Shown here: positions 3,044-29,159 of the stretch, in pieces
Layout of the letters: each line of letters starts with the position of its first letter
Position numbering within the stretch: the first letter of the stretch is position 1
IMG/VR virus record: IMGVR_UViG_3300042905_001100
Span: 1-40,663 of that record
DNA from: a virus
Strand: one strand, 5' to 3'
Length of the DNA stretch: 40,663 nt
Notes under the pieces: model-generated
What the model was told of the DNA's origin: nothing
Seen by the model: the letters and a program-made list of their open reading frames with translations, nothing else
Database searches by the model: none
Program-made: the position numbers and the translations under genes

Positions 3044-3931
3044 CTACTTCCGGTAATGTACGGGCGTGTTGATTTCACCACGGAAACGAGCAACCTCCTC
3101 AGCAAGCCTCTGCTGATATAGCGCATACAAAGTTCTAGCCACGTTAGAAGCGGAGCCGATCTGGCGACGCTCATCAAAAAAGCCTGCCTGCACTGACGAC
3201 GGATCCAGCAGAGCCACATCGATTGACGACACAAGTCGCGCAGCCGTCCCAAGAGCAACAACATCCCGGCACGATGCAGGCAAACCCGCTGTAGTTGTGA
3301 GCGTGTCCGAACCCGCTGACAGAAGAGTCGGATCCTTCAGGAACTGAACCTGCACAGTCCTGCCAGGAACAACCGAATCCCACACAGTGATCGTCTTGCC
3401 TGTCGCATACTGGGTCGCATTCGCCTGAAGGTCGATCTGCCATCTGCGAACAGTCTCCCAACGGCCCGAAGGGCCAACAGTCTTCCAAGTAACCTGGCTC
3501 ACTTCATCCACCGTGGAAGGAATAGGGTAGGTGTTCGTGGCTGCCAGGAACGTGAACGTGTGAGTGTCCTTAGCCTTTAACTCTACACCCATAGAGGCGA
3601 TAGTGTCGTTAATGGCACGCTTCACATAGTGGCGTGGGAACAGGGGATTGAACGTCACACGGGCATTGTCGCTGTGTGTGGCTGCTGTTGTCCCATCCAC
3701 ACCACGACCCCACGGCTGAAGGGCTACAGCGTTCGTCGTGATCGCGTCAATGTAGACAAGCTCATCATCAATCTCAGCCCGACCCATGCCTAGACGGGCA
3801 CCGTTATCCACATTGAATGTGGTCGCTGTCCCATTAAGGCTGCCATTTAGGGCAGTCACAGACTCCTGAGAACGCACATAACCACGCAGCATCGACAGCA
3901 CATCGTTAGTCAAATCGTCAAACGTCGTCAC
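3044..3931 (-). CDS. Head-to-tail connector/adaptor-like protein
   Basis: This 295-residue protein has an N-terminal helix (TFDDLTNDVLSMLRGYV), a beta insert with GRGVDGTTAATHSDNARV (about 74-91) matching a module in the next gene, then FPRHYVKRAINDTIASM and a helical C-terminus rich in Arg and Gln. Helix, beta insert, helices is what phage adaptor (gp6/gp11-like) proteins show, and the place between capsid genes and fibre genes agrees. The assignment is by architecture and order, not by a recognised signature. Its start overlaps the upstream stop by 4 bases. Confidence 0.6.
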   Translation of the reverse strand: MTTFDDLTNDVLSMLRGYVRSQESVTALNGSLNGTATTFNVDNGARLGMGRAEIDDELVYIDAITTNAVALQPWGRGVDGTTAATHSDNARVTFNPLFPRHYVKRAINDTIASMGVELKAKDTHTFTFLAATNTYPIPSTVDEVSQVTWKTVGPSGRWETVRRWQIDLQANATQYATGKTITVWDSVVPGRTVQVQFLKDPTLLSAGSDTLTTTAGLPASCRDVVALGTAARLVSSIDVALLDPSSVQAGFFDERRQIGSASNVARTLYALYQQRLAEEVARFRGEINTPVHYRK

Positions 3932-5561: not shown

Positions 5562-6518
5562 TCAGGCGTTGATAGACGAAGCCGACTCAATGCGGTAAAG
5601 CGCAGCCTCACGGTAACGCTTCCACCCGAGAACGCCATACCAGCCCAGAGGGCGGTGACGCATCAGCTTGTCCGTAACCGGACCCATGATCGTGTGCGGC
5701 TCCTCAGCGACAGCCTCAGCCAGCGCCTGCTTGCCCACGATGATCGTGCGGTACACCTTCGCAGAAGTAGCACCATCCGTTGCCGAGTACATGCGAGGAG
5801 TCTCAATGAAGTAAGCACCCTCAAACGTACCGATGAATCCAGGCCAGAAGTTCTCCGTAGCATCGTACTTGTGGAGATCCTGGAACCCGCCACCCGTAGC
5901 CTCCTTGCGAAGATCGAAGGAAACCTCAGGGTGAATGTAGGCAGCGTAAAGGCTACCCTGACGCGGAACCGCAAGGTTCGCACGCAGCTTCGCAACAACG
6001 AAACGAATGTCGTCAGCCTTGATGATGTCCGTGATCTCAACCTCAGAAGTCTGAGTGGGAGTGTCGGACGAGTCACGGGCGAAACGAACATTGCTACCAC
6101 CACGCAGCTCCGTCATCACAACAGAGTCAAGCGAGTCAGCCATGTTGTACGCGATGATGTCAGCAGCAGCCGGGTCAACATCGGACAGCGAGAACAGACC
6201 CAGCTTGCGGGTGAGCAGGGCAGCATTGCCGTACTCGTTCAGAGTAACAGTGACCGTGGTCGTGTTGCTCAGTGCAACCGCATCAGGATCAACGTTCTCA
6301 GTCAGGGTCGAAGTTGCCTGAGCCAGATCAGCATAAATCTGGAAAACAACAGACGAACCCGGCATGGCCTGCTGGACGGGCCGCTTATCAGCAATGTCAC
6401 GGATGAGCGGCTGCGACCGCAGTGCCATCTCAACATAACGATCATAAGCAGTCTGGACAAGGTTAGTCATACCAGTCTGATTGGAGATCGTGCTAGTACC
6501 AGTGTAGGTATTAGGCAT
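5562..6518 (-). CDS. Major capsid protein, N4 gp56-like
   Basis: 318 residues. It has N-terminal helices (NLVQTAYDRYVEMALRSQP), then PGSSVVFQIYADLAQATSTL and the characteristic TENVDPDAVALS followed by TTTVTVTLNEYGNAALLTRK (about 70-105). That pattern is typical of the N4 gp56 family of HK97-fold capsid proteins. The C-terminal half has the expected P-domain and the end REAALYRIESAS. Length is normal for the family. The scaffold-like gene lies directly upstream in transcription order, as is usual. Confidence 0.9.
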   Translation of the reverse strand: MPNTYTGTSTISNQTGMTNLVQTAYDRYVEMALRSQPLIRDIADKRPVQQAMPGSSVVFQIYADLAQATSTLTENVDPDAVALSNTTTVTVTLNEYGNAALLTRKLGLFSLSDVDPAAADIIAYNMADSLDSVVMTELRGGSNVRFARDSSDTPTQTSEVEITDIIKADDIRFVVAKLRANLAVPRQGSLYAAYIHPEVSFDLRKEATGGGFQDLHKYDATENFWPGFIGTFEGAYFIETPRMYSATDGATSAKVYRTIIVGKQALAEAVAEEPHTIMGPVTDKLMRHRPLGWYGVLGWKRYREAALYRIESASSINA

Positions 6519-6562: not shown

Positions 6563-7066
6563 TCAGTACACCGGGGGACCACCGGAACCCTGGAACAGAA
6601 TCCTGTTCAGGTCTTCCGGTGTCTTCGCAGCGGCAATCATTGCCATGATCTGCGACTCGTCACCAGCCGGTGCCTGTCCCGCATTCACAACCTCATTGAA
6701 CTGCTGATAGCCAGGGGGAACCATCACATCCTGCTGAAAGTCCATCTGCTCATTCTGAGAGCCATCGCTGTCCGCAGCCACAGTCGTGGGCTGGAACACA
6801 TCGGCCTTCTCATCAAGCCAAGAAACAATCTCTGCTTCGTTAGTGATATCCCCCGGGATCAAATCAGCGATCTTCGGGTTGTAACCGCGAGACGCGAGAA
6901 CGTCTGCCACTGTCCGCTTACGCGATTCGACGCGGTAACCTTGAAGTTCACCCTCAAGTTCCTTCAACCGCTTCACAGCGGCCTTATGTGCCCGACGCAC
7001 CTGCGTCATAGCACCATCATCGTAATCATCGAAATCGTCAGGCAGATCATACTCGTGCTGGGCCAT
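6563..7066 (-). CDS. Capsid assembly scaffolding protein
   Basis: 167 residues, very acidic at the N-terminus (HEYDLPDDFDDYDDG). A helical basic/acidic segment follows (KAAVKRLKELEGELQGYRVE), and the tail is Gln/Pro-rich with no clear fold. It is immediately upstream of the capsid gene. Acidic, helical, low-complexity composition with that position is the usual picture of a scaffold. There is no sequence signature beyond this. Confidence 0.7.
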   Translation of the reverse strand: MAQHEYDLPDDFDDYDDGAMTQVRRAHKAAVKRLKELEGELQGYRVESRKRTVADVLASRGYNPKIADLIPGDITNEAEIVSWLDEKADVFQPTTVAADSDGSQNEQMDFQQDVMVPPGYQQFNEVVNAGQAPAGDESQIMAMIAAAKTPEDLNRILFQGSGGPPVY

Positions 7067-7187
7067 ATGCCCTCACCCTCTTCTCATCCGTGGAAGTCGC
7101 CACCCACACACGCAACTGGGGAAGTAGCGTGTGGCTGTGACTATCGGTCTTGTGACGCACACCAGGGCCGACCGATCTGGTGTGGAG

Positions 7188-7266
7188 TGGAGCTGCTGGG
7201 AATCGAACCCAGGTCTAGGTCTGTCACCATCGTGTGGTTTTACAGTCCTGCTTTCCATTCAGCCCC
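7188..7266 (-). ncRNA. tRNA-sized RNA resembling the tmRNA tRNA-like domain
   Basis: On the minus strand this 79-base sequence folds with a 7-bp acceptor stem GGGGCTG/CAGCTCC (7260-7266 with 7189-7195) that includes a G3:U70-type wobble, discriminator A, and a T-arm CTGGG-TTCGATT-CCCAG. There is no D-stem: a 10-base loop AATGGAAAGC follows the acceptor. The anticodon arm is replaced by a longer helix (AGGaCTGT with ACAGaCCT, then ACCA/TGGT around CACGA). No standard anticodon loop is present. Acceptor sequence, A8, missing D-stem and elongated helix are features of tmRNA, but the mRNA-like part and tag reading frame are absent. CCA is not encoded. It is co-directional with the flanking structural genes. 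Alternatives are a decayed tRNA-Ala or tmRNA, or an integration site carrying an ssrA 3' end. Confidence 0.6.
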
Positions 7267-7268
7267 GA

Positions 7269-7286
7269 ACAGGACTAACGTCCCGT
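7269..7286 (-). other. Small hairpin just upstream of the tRNA-like RNA
   Basis: On the minus strand ACGGGAC and GTCCTGT pair as 7 bp (one G:U) around a GTTA loop, three bases 5' of the tRNA-like element. The G:U pair would be an A:C mismatch on the other strand, which favours a minus-strand transcript. It could be a processing signal; this is inference. Confidence 0.35.
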
Positions 7287-7318: not shown

Positions 7319-8590
7319 CTATAGGTTCCTTTCGACCCCGAGAGAACCCGCAGCAGTCCCAGCCGACCCAGCGAACCGCGCACGCTCACGCCGTGCACGC
7401 CTCTCCGACGCGAGCCTCGCCTGCTCATCACCGAAAGCAGCAGCAAGAGCGTCCCTCTGATCAAACGCTTCACGGTCGATTCCGGCAAGAGTTGTCTCCC
7501 TCTCAGCGACACGACGAGCCCTACCGAACTCGCCCTCAAGTTGAGCCAGGGTTCCCATCTGGAACGGGTCAATCGTTGCACCCACAGAAGTACCGGCAAG
7601 ACGCTCAGCGTAGGCACGGTCCATGCTGAACCCTGCACGCTCCGCAGCAGCACCAATCTGTGCAGTACGAGCAATCCCGCGAATACCCTCTTGGGTGCGG
7701 ATAGCCTCGTTACGGTCAGCCTTGAAACGCAGACCCTGCTCGTTAGTCAAACCAAGCATATACGCTGTCAGGTCACCGTCACTCACATCGTAATATTGAC
7801 GCAACTCAGCAGCCACGAGAGGATTCATTGCCTGCTTTGCAGCAACAACCCGCTCCTCAACCTCGCGTACAGAAAGACCAGCACCAATCAAGCGAGCATA
7901 ATCCTCAGGCGAGTCATAGTATGTCGGATCAATACCGTAGTTAGACATGACATTACGGTACGAGGACTCAAGTCCAATGTACTGAGCCTCAGAGATAGCC
8001 TGACCACGAGCAATCAGTTCAGACATGCCAGCAAAACGGCGCTTATAGATATCCGTGTCACGGAACTTCATCAACACGGCATCCGTGCCAGCATCGGCAA
8101 GACCAGACTGAATCCAACCCTCAACCTGGCCCATCAAAGTGGTAATGTCAGCGTCACCGAAACCGAACTGTCTGAACAGGCCACGCAGATACTCACGGGC
8201 AATAGCCCGTGTAGCAATCTGCTTCGTGTCGTCAGGGCCAGGAGGCTCAGTCGGAGTAACCGGATCTATAGGATCTGCCGGGTCTACAGGATCTGTAGGT
8301 GTCTGCCGGAAACCCCAACCAGTAGCGTCATCCCACACCCACTCGTAACCCTCAGGCAGAGTCTGGGTAGGACGCTCATCCTTCGTCAGGCGAGTCTCAA
8401 TCCACGCCTGACCGTTCCACTTCCACGCAAAGCCAGGTCGTGGAGTCGCTTTGGGAGGGTTACCGGGCTTAGGGGTATTGCTCCACGGGAACGGACCAGA
8501 GCCTGAGCCAGTACCCGGCTCGTTTGGATTAGGGCCGCCACTTGGTGGCTTCTTGTCACCCGGCTTCTTGGGCTTCCTTGAATCAGCCAT
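7319..8590 (-). CDS. Probable internal virion/ejection protein
   Basis: 423 residues. Residues 1-50 are Pro/Gly/Lys-rich and disordered. A WKWNGQAWIETRLTKDERP segment and a short DPVDPADPIDPVTPTEP proline repeat (about 97-113) follow. From about 120 on the protein is almost wholly helical, with IYKRRFAGMSELIARGQAIS, a YDSPEDYARLIGAGLSVRE block, and an Arg/Ala-rich C-terminus. It is the third of a run of long helical proteins between the portal region and the capsid, which is where ejectosome proteins lie in short-tailed phages. Function is inferred from order and composition. Confidence 0.6.
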   Translation of the reverse strand: MADSRKPKKPGDKKPPSGGPNPNEPGTGSGSGPFPWSNTPKPGNPPKATPRPGFAWKWNGQAWIETRLTKDERPTQTLPEGYEWVWDDATGWGFRQTPTDPVDPADPIDPVTPTEPPGPDDTKQIATRAIAREYLRGLFRQFGFGDADITTLMGQVEGWIQSGLADAGTDAVLMKFRDTDIYKRRFAGMSELIARGQAISEAQYIGLESSYRNVMSNYGIDPTYYDSPEDYARLIGAGLSVREVEERVVAAKQAMNPLVAAELRQYYDVSDGDLTAYMLGLTNEQGLRFKADRNEAIRTQEGIRGIARTAQIGAAAERAGFSMDRAYAERLAGTSVGATIDPFQMGTLAQLEGEFGRARRVAERETTLAGIDREAFDQRDALAAAFGDEQARLASERRARRERARFAGSAGTAAGSLGVERNL

Positions 8591-16514: not shown

Positions 16515-16975
16515 CGCGAACCCTGGAGATACCGCACCAGTGCGCGAAATCTGTCTGGTGCGCCATCATATGTTGCTACCTGTTGCAACACGGGAAGATA
16601 TTTAGTGACAACCTCAAGGTTGTTCACTGGCTTAGACATTTGCAAGGTTTCTGCCGGTCCCGGTCCAGGTCCGAAAGGGGCACCCGCAGTAATAGGCTCA
16701 TCCGGTCGCTCCGTAGGAGCAAACAGAGGAGTAGGGCGAGCCATCTCAGGTGCGGCCTGACGACCACCACGGGCACGAGGAGTAGCAGCACGGCCCTCAG
16801 AAGCCTGCGACATGGGTGCTGAAGTCTGAAGATCCATCATCTCCTGACCCTCACCATACTCACCACCAGCCATATACCTCGCGCCCTGACCATCAGTACG
16901 ACGCGACATAGCACCAGGCCCAGACACGGGCGCAGGATTACTCGGCTGGCGGTAACCACCACGACCCTCAGCCAT
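16511..16975 (-). CDS. Low-complexity Gly/Pro/Arg-rich structural-region protein
   Basis: 154 residues. Residues 1-105 are disordered (GRGGYRQPSNPAPVSGPGAM; YMAGGEYGEGQEM; APFGPGPGPAETLQM). The only likely folded part is the C-terminal helix pair VNNLEVVTKYLPVLQQVATY to FRALVRYLQGSR. It could be a linker or capture protein in head assembly, but there is no homologue I can name. It overlaps the upstream gene by 8 bases. Confidence 0.65.
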   Translation of the reverse strand: MAEGRGGYRQPSNPAPVSGPGAMSRRTDGQGARYMAGGEYGEGQEMMDLQTSAPMSQASEGRAATPRARGGRQAAPEMARPTPLFAPTERPDEPITAGAPFGPGPGPAETLQMSKPVNNLEVVTKYLPVLQQVATYDGAPDRFRALVRYLQGSR

Positions 16976-28060: not shown

Positions 28061-28378
28061 ATGGAGATTATTGCTGTCAATGACTGCAACCATGACTATG
28101 AGGTGATTGTTGCGCTCAAGGCACACGAGTTGATGGACCTTCGGCAGGCCACGTACGCCTATATCGGTAGGCGTGAGGATTGGTGGGTTGAGAAGGGCTG
28201 CCCGACACCTAACGGTAAGGACAAGGACTGGCGCATGACGATGGATGTGAACTTGAACATCATGCTGCGTGCACGTGAGCTTCACGGTGCGATTAGTGTG
28301 CTTGCTGATGGTGCTACGGCGTGGGCTAACCGCATTGAGGATCTTTACTTCGATGAGGAGGATGAGTCTGATGATTGA
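28061..28378 (+). CDS. Hypothetical early protein
   Basis: 105 residues: MEIIAVNDCNHDYEVIVALK, then helices AHELMDLRQATYAYIGRRED and NIMLRARELHGAISVLADGA, with an acidic end (YFDEEDESDD). Overlaps the integrase start. Function unknown. Confidence 0.75.
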   Translation: MEIIAVNDCNHDYEVIVALKAHELMDLRQATYAYIGRREDWWVEKGCPTPNGKDKDWRMTMDVNLNIMLRARELHGAISVLADGATAWANRIEDLYFDEEDESDD

Positions 28379-29159
28379 TTTGACGAAGATTGATGCGTGG
28401 ATGCATGCACAAGGCCACGCACCTGGCACCAGACTACTGCGTTTGAGTTTCATCAAGCGGTTCATCAAAACGTGTGACCCTGTGACGTGCACGATGTCTG
28501 ATGTGGCTGTGTTCATGGCTAACGACAACTGGAAGCCTGCGAGTCGTGCCTCGGCGCGGTCAGCGTTGAAGGTACTGTTCGAATGGTTGAAACTTGAAGG
28601 ACTCAGGTCTGATTCACCGATGGATGGGGTGAAACCTGTCAAGGTGAACCAGGGTGTGCCTCACCCGTGCCCTGAGGAGGGCTTTCAGACGGCCCTGAAG
28701 GTCGCAGATGACCGCACCCGCCTTGCAGTGATGCTTGCTGGTTTTGCGGGGCTGAGAAGGGCTGAGATCGCTGGTATGCATGGCTCTATGATCGGTGAAA
28801 CTGAGCTTCGTGTCACAGGTAAAGGCTCTAAGACAAGGGTTGTACCTATTCACCCTGATCTGGAGCCTTGGCTGGCCCCTTACAGGGGCAGGGATGTGTT
28901 CCTGTTCCCTTCAGGTGCCACGCATCTGACTCCCACAAGTGTGGGTAGGATGGTGCGTAAGGTTCTGCCTGATGGGTACTCTACGCACTCGCTGCGGCAC
29001 AGGTTCGCCAGTCAGGTGCACGCGAACAGTAAGGATCTGCGTGCAGTGCAGACTTTGCTGGGTCATTCGTCGTTGGCGACGACACAGATCTATGTGAATG
29101 TGTCTAGTGACCAGTTGGCTAATGCTGTGGGTTCCCTTGCCAGGTTGTCTGATGGCTAA
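28371..29159 (+). CDS. Tyrosine recombinase / integrase
   Basis: 262 residues from the ATG 8 bases before the previous stop. The N-terminal SAM-like core-binding domain (about 1-90) is followed by the catalytic domain: GLRRAE with Arg129, Lys151/154 in VTGKGSKTR, HSLRH with His206 and Arg209, GHSS with His232 and nucleophile Tyr241 in TTQIYVNVS. This is a Xer-like, short integrase with no extra N-terminal arm-binding domain. No repressor or excisionase is recognisable nearby. It could integrate the phage or resolve multimers; the tRNA-like element at 7188-7266 is a candidate attachment site. Confidence 0.92.
   Translation: MIDLTKIDAWMHAQGHAPGTRLLRLSFIKRFIKTCDPVTCTMSDVAVFMANDNWKPASRASARSALKVLFEWLKLEGLRSDSPMDGVKPVKVNQGVPHPCPEEGFQTALKVADDRTRLAVMLAGFAGLRRAEIAGMHGSMIGETELRVTGKGSKTRVVPIHPDLEPWLAPYRGRDVFLFPSGATHLTPTSVGRMVRKVLPDGYSTHSLRHRFASQVHANSKDLRAVQTLLGHSSLATTQIYVNVSSDQLANAVGSLARLSDG

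Follow-up and report, generated by a model that had tools for sequence, protein, structure and literature searches.

The bacterial one-piece tmRNA encoded by ssrA (Rfam RF00023) is about 350–390 nt long and comprises an acceptor stem with a G3:U70 pair and A73, a GG-containing D-loop that lacks a D-stem, a T-arm and a P2 helix, together with a tag reading frame and pseudoknots. SmpB needs the D-loop/T-loop interactions at the tmRNA elbow, and the keys for alanyl-tRNA synthetase (AlaRS) are G3:U70 and A73 (PMC3968760). Permuted two-piece tmRNAs (RF04321), which are found in phages too, contain the same tRNA-like domain (TLD) together with a coding RNA, and their 3' part is encoded ahead of the 5' part. 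No tag frame is present in the tag-less mitochondrial tmRNAs or in the CDS-less plastid tmRNAs of Mallomonadaceae, which represent reduction of the organelle's only tmRNA. Closest to the RNA described here is the TLD-only tmRNA of Mycobacterium phage DS6A. It has little beyond the tRNA-like domain, and this form is reported to act in E. coli as an inhibitor of the cell's own tmRNA (Mao et al. 2009, as cited in PMC4131195 and PMC11915505). No other phage TLD-only tmRNA is named in the open-licence literature consulted, and a search for related terms there did not turn up a family of such RNAs.

The window (the whole stretch of viral DNA analysed, 40,663 nt) encodes a 79-nt RNA whose kind was already known, because the DS6A molecule has been described; the view in an earlier note that no such RNA had been described is therefore wrong. 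Its features are as follows.

7188–7266, minus strand: mini-tmRNA, the tRNA-like domain of a tmRNA, 79 nt, without an mRNA-like domain (sequence, Rfam, RNAfold, relatives)
7260–7266, minus strand: 5' strand of the acceptor stem, GGGGCTG, including G3, the 5' partner in the alanine identity pair G3:U70 (sequence, fold)
7250–7259, minus strand: reduced, stemless D-loop AATGGAAAGC, with A at position 8 and GG conserved as in tmRNA (Rfam, fold)
7217–7249, minus strand: P2-like arm, AGG/CCT plus CTGT/ACAG, topped by a purine-rich internal loop and then the apical hairpin ACCA-CACGA-TGGT (fold, compensatory changes)
7213–7216, minus strand: AGAC linker 5' of the T-arm; most family members have GGAC (Rfam, family alignment)
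7196–7212, minus strand: T-arm, CTGGG-TTCGATT-CCCAG (sequence, fold, relatives)
7188–7195, minus strand: 3' strand of the acceptor, CAGCTCC, and discriminator A73 (sequence, relatives)

Read from 7266 to 7188 on the minus strand, the sequence is GGGGCTG AATGGAAAGC AGG A CTGT AAA ACCA CACGA TGGT G ACAG A CCT AGAC CTGGG TTCGATT CCCAG CAGCTCC A. The acceptor forms seven pairs including G3:U70, the T-arm has 5 bp and a 7-nt loop, the D-stem is absent, and an interrupted helix of 3 + 4 + 4 bp takes the place of an mRNA-like domain. CCA is not encoded; the bases next after A73 are CTCC. The minimum-energy structure from RNAfold is exactly this fold (−27.6 kcal/mol; z = −2.70 against dinucleotide shuffles). 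The earlier note had thus given the coordinates, strand, acceptor with G3:U70 and A73, A8, missing D-stem and T-arm correctly, and the 11-bp interrupted helix that it claimed is the 3 + 4 + 4 arm.

The full length of the Rfam tmRNA model RF00023, apart from a deleted mRNA-like domain, aligns with the element (41.8 bits, E = 2.1e-15, in a 501-nt stretch), which supports the further claim of a stand-alone tRNA-like domain without a tag. Since this score is just under the gathering score of 47, an Rfam scan of the whole window at gathering level was empty. ARAGORN called neither a tRNA nor a tmRNA at the element and found no tag; with both programs silent, standard annotation would miss it. The element shares with one-piece tmRNA the G3:U70 and A73 acceptor, the stemless reduced D-loop, the T-arm and the P2 helix, but no mRNA-like domain (resume codon, tag frame, stop) was found within its 79 nt, the internal region of the Rfam model being deleted. 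Nor are pseudoknots present, for which 79 nt leaves no room and which do not occur in the RNAfold structure. A permuted or split tmRNA was rejected as an identity: in contrast to RF04321, the mini-tmRNA is one continuous RNA without a coding part, in which both acceptor strands lie within 79 nt and the 5' strand comes first. A hidden minimal tag was likewise rejected, because inspection by eye showed neither a stop codon nor a reading frame recurring consistently in the apical parts of family members.

The same element occurs at 29 IMG/VR loci from close relatives, where its helices are maintained by compensatory changes. Acceptor pair 5 changes from C:G to G:C, P2 from AGG/CCT to GGG/CCC, the apical stem from ACCA/TGGT to CCT/AGG and CCG/CGG, and the T-stem from CTGGG/CCCAG to ACGGG/CCCGT and CCCGG/CCGGG. 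Homologues that kept only the 3' end, or a helix without covariation, had been named in the earlier note as grounds for a different reading; the 5' acceptor strand is present in the relatives, and P2 covaries.

Searches of IMG/VR with two patterns (acceptor plus T-arm, and D-loop plus T-arm; at least 120 loci each), filtered for a 7-bp acceptor, a 5-bp T-stem, G3:U70 and no tRNA call and clustered at 85% identity, yielded at least 138 distinct mini-tmRNAs in at least 88 clusters. Most are 74–80 nt long, and shorter members of 60–68 nt with a bare P2 also exist. The acceptor is not part of the D-loop plus T-arm pattern, and among the matches listed for that pattern a perfect 7-bp acceptor is nevertheless present at 114 of 120 loci. 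G1:C72, G2:C71, G3:U70 and A73 occur in all 81 distinct sequences among the same listed matches, in which acceptor pairs 4–6 vary freely between GC, CG, TA and AT; in the per-pair family list, pair 3:70 is G:U in 48/48 sequences. The D-loops of most members contain TCGAC, which is absent from the window family (AAAGC there). RF00023 scores of 48–74 bits, above the cut-off, were obtained for 13 of the 14 other loci scanned, L223 being the exception below it, and for Streptomyces phages LuckySocke and Shaeky. One phage contig (L028) has two mini-tmRNA-like copies, at 1298–1374 and 3208–3288 (76.3 and 41.5 bits).

In 257 Gb of prokaryote genomes, the D-loop plus T-arm pattern matched 68 loci, only five of which are mini-tmRNAs. 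Phage genes lie beside at least three of the five (L223, terminase and portal; L180, head genes; L185, phage families), a fourth (L204) has one phage-family match nearby, and the phage context of the fifth (L191) is not clear. In four of the five host or bin genomes the mini-tmRNA is extra, since the genome also encodes a complete tmRNA, which resembles it in the D-loop and differs from it at the 3' end. In this it differs from the organellar tmRNAs, which resemble it in lacking a tag frame: it is an extra copy beside an intact host tmRNA in the hosts of four relatives.

Pairing in P2 was assessed without an alignment, using only the D-loop end and the T-arm linker as anchors, in 64 cluster representatives and 2000 shuffles. 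P2 pairs 2–8 form in 43–63 of the 64, with all pair types, a level reached by none of the 2000 shuffles at any of these pairs; registers slid by 1–2 bases are at background level, except for the fixed first pair. In alignment A5, 94.8% of cells pair compared with 67.9% after shuffling, both sides change in 17 of 23 pairs, and the covariation score reaches 0.642 (shuffled, 0.129; slid controls, ≤0.080). A5 was fitted to the structure and is biased towards it; the anchored P2 test is independent of A5. Model R1 gave 74.8, 73.7, 72.4 and 59.9 bits for pSt2308, LuckySocke, BRock and Jojan60, all outside its training set, and 67.8 bits for the window element, a value that is not independent because the window sequence was included in training. 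Real tRNAs score below about 25 bits under R1, except for one tRNA of Beephvirinae phages (28) and their D-arm-less tRNA-Ala (37). Given the helices kept through compensatory changes in relatives and the strong covariation across the wider family, the window element is not a chance resemblance, and it is close to certain that it is a real tmRNA tRNA-like domain.

Members of the commonest length class carry, on top of P2, a purine-rich internal loop followed by a small hairpin, with the consensus RAAR-CCGCAYGCGG-A; the window version is AAA-ACCA-CACGA-TGGT-G, and short members have no apical hairpin. A genome scan with the apical motif as query gave 0 matches.

The mini-tmRNA occupies the gap between two genes of the structural operon, on the strand common to both, and is itself flanked by hairpins.

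7319–8590, minus strand: phrog_8424, structural-operon gene upstream of the mini-tmRNA (gene call, phrog match)
7269–7286, minus strand: hairpin ending 2 nt 5' of the mini-tmRNA (fold prediction)
7158–7184, minus strand: hairpin 3 nt past the mini-tmRNA 3' end (fold prediction)
6563–7066, minus strand: phrog_7813, downstream gene in the scaffold position, just ahead of the capsid gene (gene call, phrog match)
5562–6518, minus strand: major capsid protein gene, phrog_1357 (phrog match)

The downstream hairpin is predicted in all 12 close-family sequences examined. The upstream hairpin is kept, with changed sequence, in most relatives, and is not predicted in L036, L045 and L132. They are possibly signals for processing or for protection of mRNA ends. 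In its terminase and capsid proteins the window phage shares about 50% identity with Beephvirinae (Streptomyces phages, e.g. Manuel and FlowerPower). Manuel, FlowerPower and Zeigle have an array of about 20 tRNA genes in the equivalent slot, where the window phage lacks them all and has only the mini-tmRNA. A blastn search of cultured phages with the window region gave no match. A tyrosine integrase gene is present in the window (28269–29159, plus strand) and likewise in the records of three relatives (L007, L036 and L143), so the window phage may be temperate.

A similar placement recurs across the family. The mini-tmRNA lies between a prohead protease and a capsid gene in six clusters (L226, L240, L322, L297, L113 and L019) and adjoins terminase or portal in L223, L335, L272, L089, L270 and L058; in L105 the helices differ from those of the window and the neighbours are the same. 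Flanking genes are on the same strand as the mini-tmRNA in 113 of 143 cases, and there is no tRNA within 3 kb in 67 of the 88 clusters. Eight cultured phages are carriers: the Streptomyces phages LuckySocke, GiJojo, Alone3, Shaeky, BRock, Riptide and pSt2308, and Stenotrophomonas phage Jojan60. In the seven Streptomyces phages the mini-tmRNA is located among tRNAs and is unannotated or overlapped by a hypothetical protein; such a protein is called across it in GiJojo and Jojan60. ARAGORN misses most genes of the family. Four unannotated examples are given below.

L123, 2491–2569: mini-tmRNA of Shaeky
L122, 2491–2568: mini-tmRNA of LuckySocke
L374, 691–768: mini-tmRNA of BRock
L375, 701–780: mini-tmRNA of Jojan60

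What is new here is the breadth of the family, a covariation-backed P2 with a recurring apical hairpin, the invariant alanine identity and the repeated head-operon position. The earlier novelty claim was too strong for the kind of RNA and too weak for its scale, as it missed that the family is widespread and that unannotated members occur in cultured phages, namely of Streptomyces and, in one case, of Stenotrophomonas. Compared with DS6A on the basis of its published description, both are phage-encoded and essentially the tRNA-like domain of a tmRNA; the window family differs in its covarying P2, frequent apical hairpin and head-operon site.

Read from sequence, the likely function of the mini-tmRNA lies in interference with trans-translation, and on balance it is probably an alanine-charged, SmpB-binding decoy that competes with host tmRNA and reduces tagging at the peak of capsid production. 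In place of the mRNA-like domain and pseudoknots it has a short P2 helix topped by an apical hairpin. The RNA would be transcribed together with the late head genes, excised by host tRNA-processing enzymes and completed by addition of CCA. Charging with alanine by AlaRS is expected from the invariant G3:U70 and A73, and binding of SmpB from the stemless D-loop with its conserved GG and the intact T-loop, though the window family, with no TCGAC in its D-loop, could make weaker contacts with SmpB. Lacking both tag and resume codon, the charged RNA would compete with host tmRNA for SmpB, AlaRS, EF-Tu and stalled ribosomes. Tagging and degradation of nascent proteins would then be lowered while capsid production peaks, presumably to the benefit of the phage. 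Two observations count against such a decoy: simple competition does not account for the recurring apical hairpin, and some other phages carry a full, tag-bearing tmRNA instead.

The main rival explanation is that the alanine-charged mini-tmRNA enters the stalled ribosome with SmpB and accepts the nascent chain, after which the ribosome would be released with no tag added, leaving phage proteins untagged and stable. The invariant alanine identity fits charging by AlaRS and charging seems to matter, so that the mini-tmRNA may also enter ribosomes, and titration of SmpB alone needs no charging (PMC4131195); the invariance may otherwise reflect selection on another property. The apical hairpin, conserved in many members, could serve a step after ribosome entry, and mitochondrial and some plastid tmRNAs are retained although they too have no tag frame (PMC11915505). 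The RNA itself, however, shows no stop codon or release route, and in the accounts that cite the original study the DS6A-type molecule is an inhibitor; rescue without tagging is thus considered unlikely.

The head-operon position, often directly ahead of the capsid gene, the shared strand of most flanking genes and the flanking hairpins of the window family would also suit a tRNA-like fold that acts mainly as an RNase P/RNase Z cutting site, parting the capsid mRNA from the upstream mRNA. However, cutting makes G3:U70, A73, the tmRNA D-loop and the tmRNA-type GAC unnecessary, yet all are conserved, and some copies are in tRNA arrays or away from head genes, which makes a role as operon punctuation rather improbable.

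It is very doubtful that the element is a remnant of the tRNA array seen in the equivalent slot of its Streptomyces-phage relatives, as a tRNA-Ala that is decayed or without a D-arm, even though the arrays of FlowerPower and Zeigle include a D-arm-less tRNA-Ala. The likeness to tRNA-Ala extends to G3:U70, A73 and the T-arm, whereas the D-arm, a 7-nt anticodon loop and U8 (A8 here) are all missing, and on the evidence of ARAGORN and the fold an ordinary or decayed tRNA-Ala was rejected. In Rfam the tmRNA model outscores the tRNA model, P2 and the apical hairpin are maintained by compensatory changes, and the family spans at least 88 clusters, mostly without a tRNA nearby. The Beephvirinae relatives contain no close mini-tmRNA match, the best being the D-arm-less tRNA-Ala at 37 bits. 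A D-arm-less tRNA-Ala(UGC) lies at 16785–16852 within the Streptomyces phage tRNA array of both L154 and L155 (Beephvirinae).

Integration in ssrA is common among phages, the window and three relatives encode a tyrosine integrase, and probable ssrA attP copies exist in mycobacteriophages Shandong1 and Milly, but an attP that duplicates the 3' end of host ssrA is hardly credible and was rejected, since the Shandong1 and Milly copies, which served as controls, comprise the 3' half only (18 bits in Shandong1) while the window element has a 5' acceptor strand and P2 that covary, its integrase is 21 kb away, and the 3' ends of mini-tmRNA and host tmRNA differ in the host genomes of four relatives. 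The Shandong1 (L124) and Milly (L126) sequences are unannotated ssrA 3' ends directly ahead of an integrase. Several INPHARED matches, among them PaMx31, S-CAM1, RpAliso, CcrBL9 and Tunturi_4, proved to be tag-bearing permuted tmRNAs and were not counted with the mini-tmRNAs. In Tunturiibacter phage Tunturi_4 (L130; 1123–1470 and 1441–1975) an ArfB-like RF-1-domain gene (GGQ) directly precedes the permuted tmRNA, which places two ribosome-rescue parts side by side.

DS6A, the sole earlier tag-less phage tmRNA named in the literature consulted, had looked like a curiosity. That at least 88 clusters share one unvarying alanine identity and a body that covaries points to selection for a function, and the repeated place beside capsid genes suggests the timing of action. 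tmRNA is found in nearly all bacteria. It is tempting to speculate, and is proposed here as a tentative possibility, that the mini-tmRNAs form a distinct phage-wide family of alanine-charged, SmpB-dependent RNAs with a functional apical hairpin, which would take over late ribosome rescue by blocking or replacing tagging, protect capsid production and so may serve phages as a general counter-measure against trans-translation. Cultured carrier phages make this role testable now.
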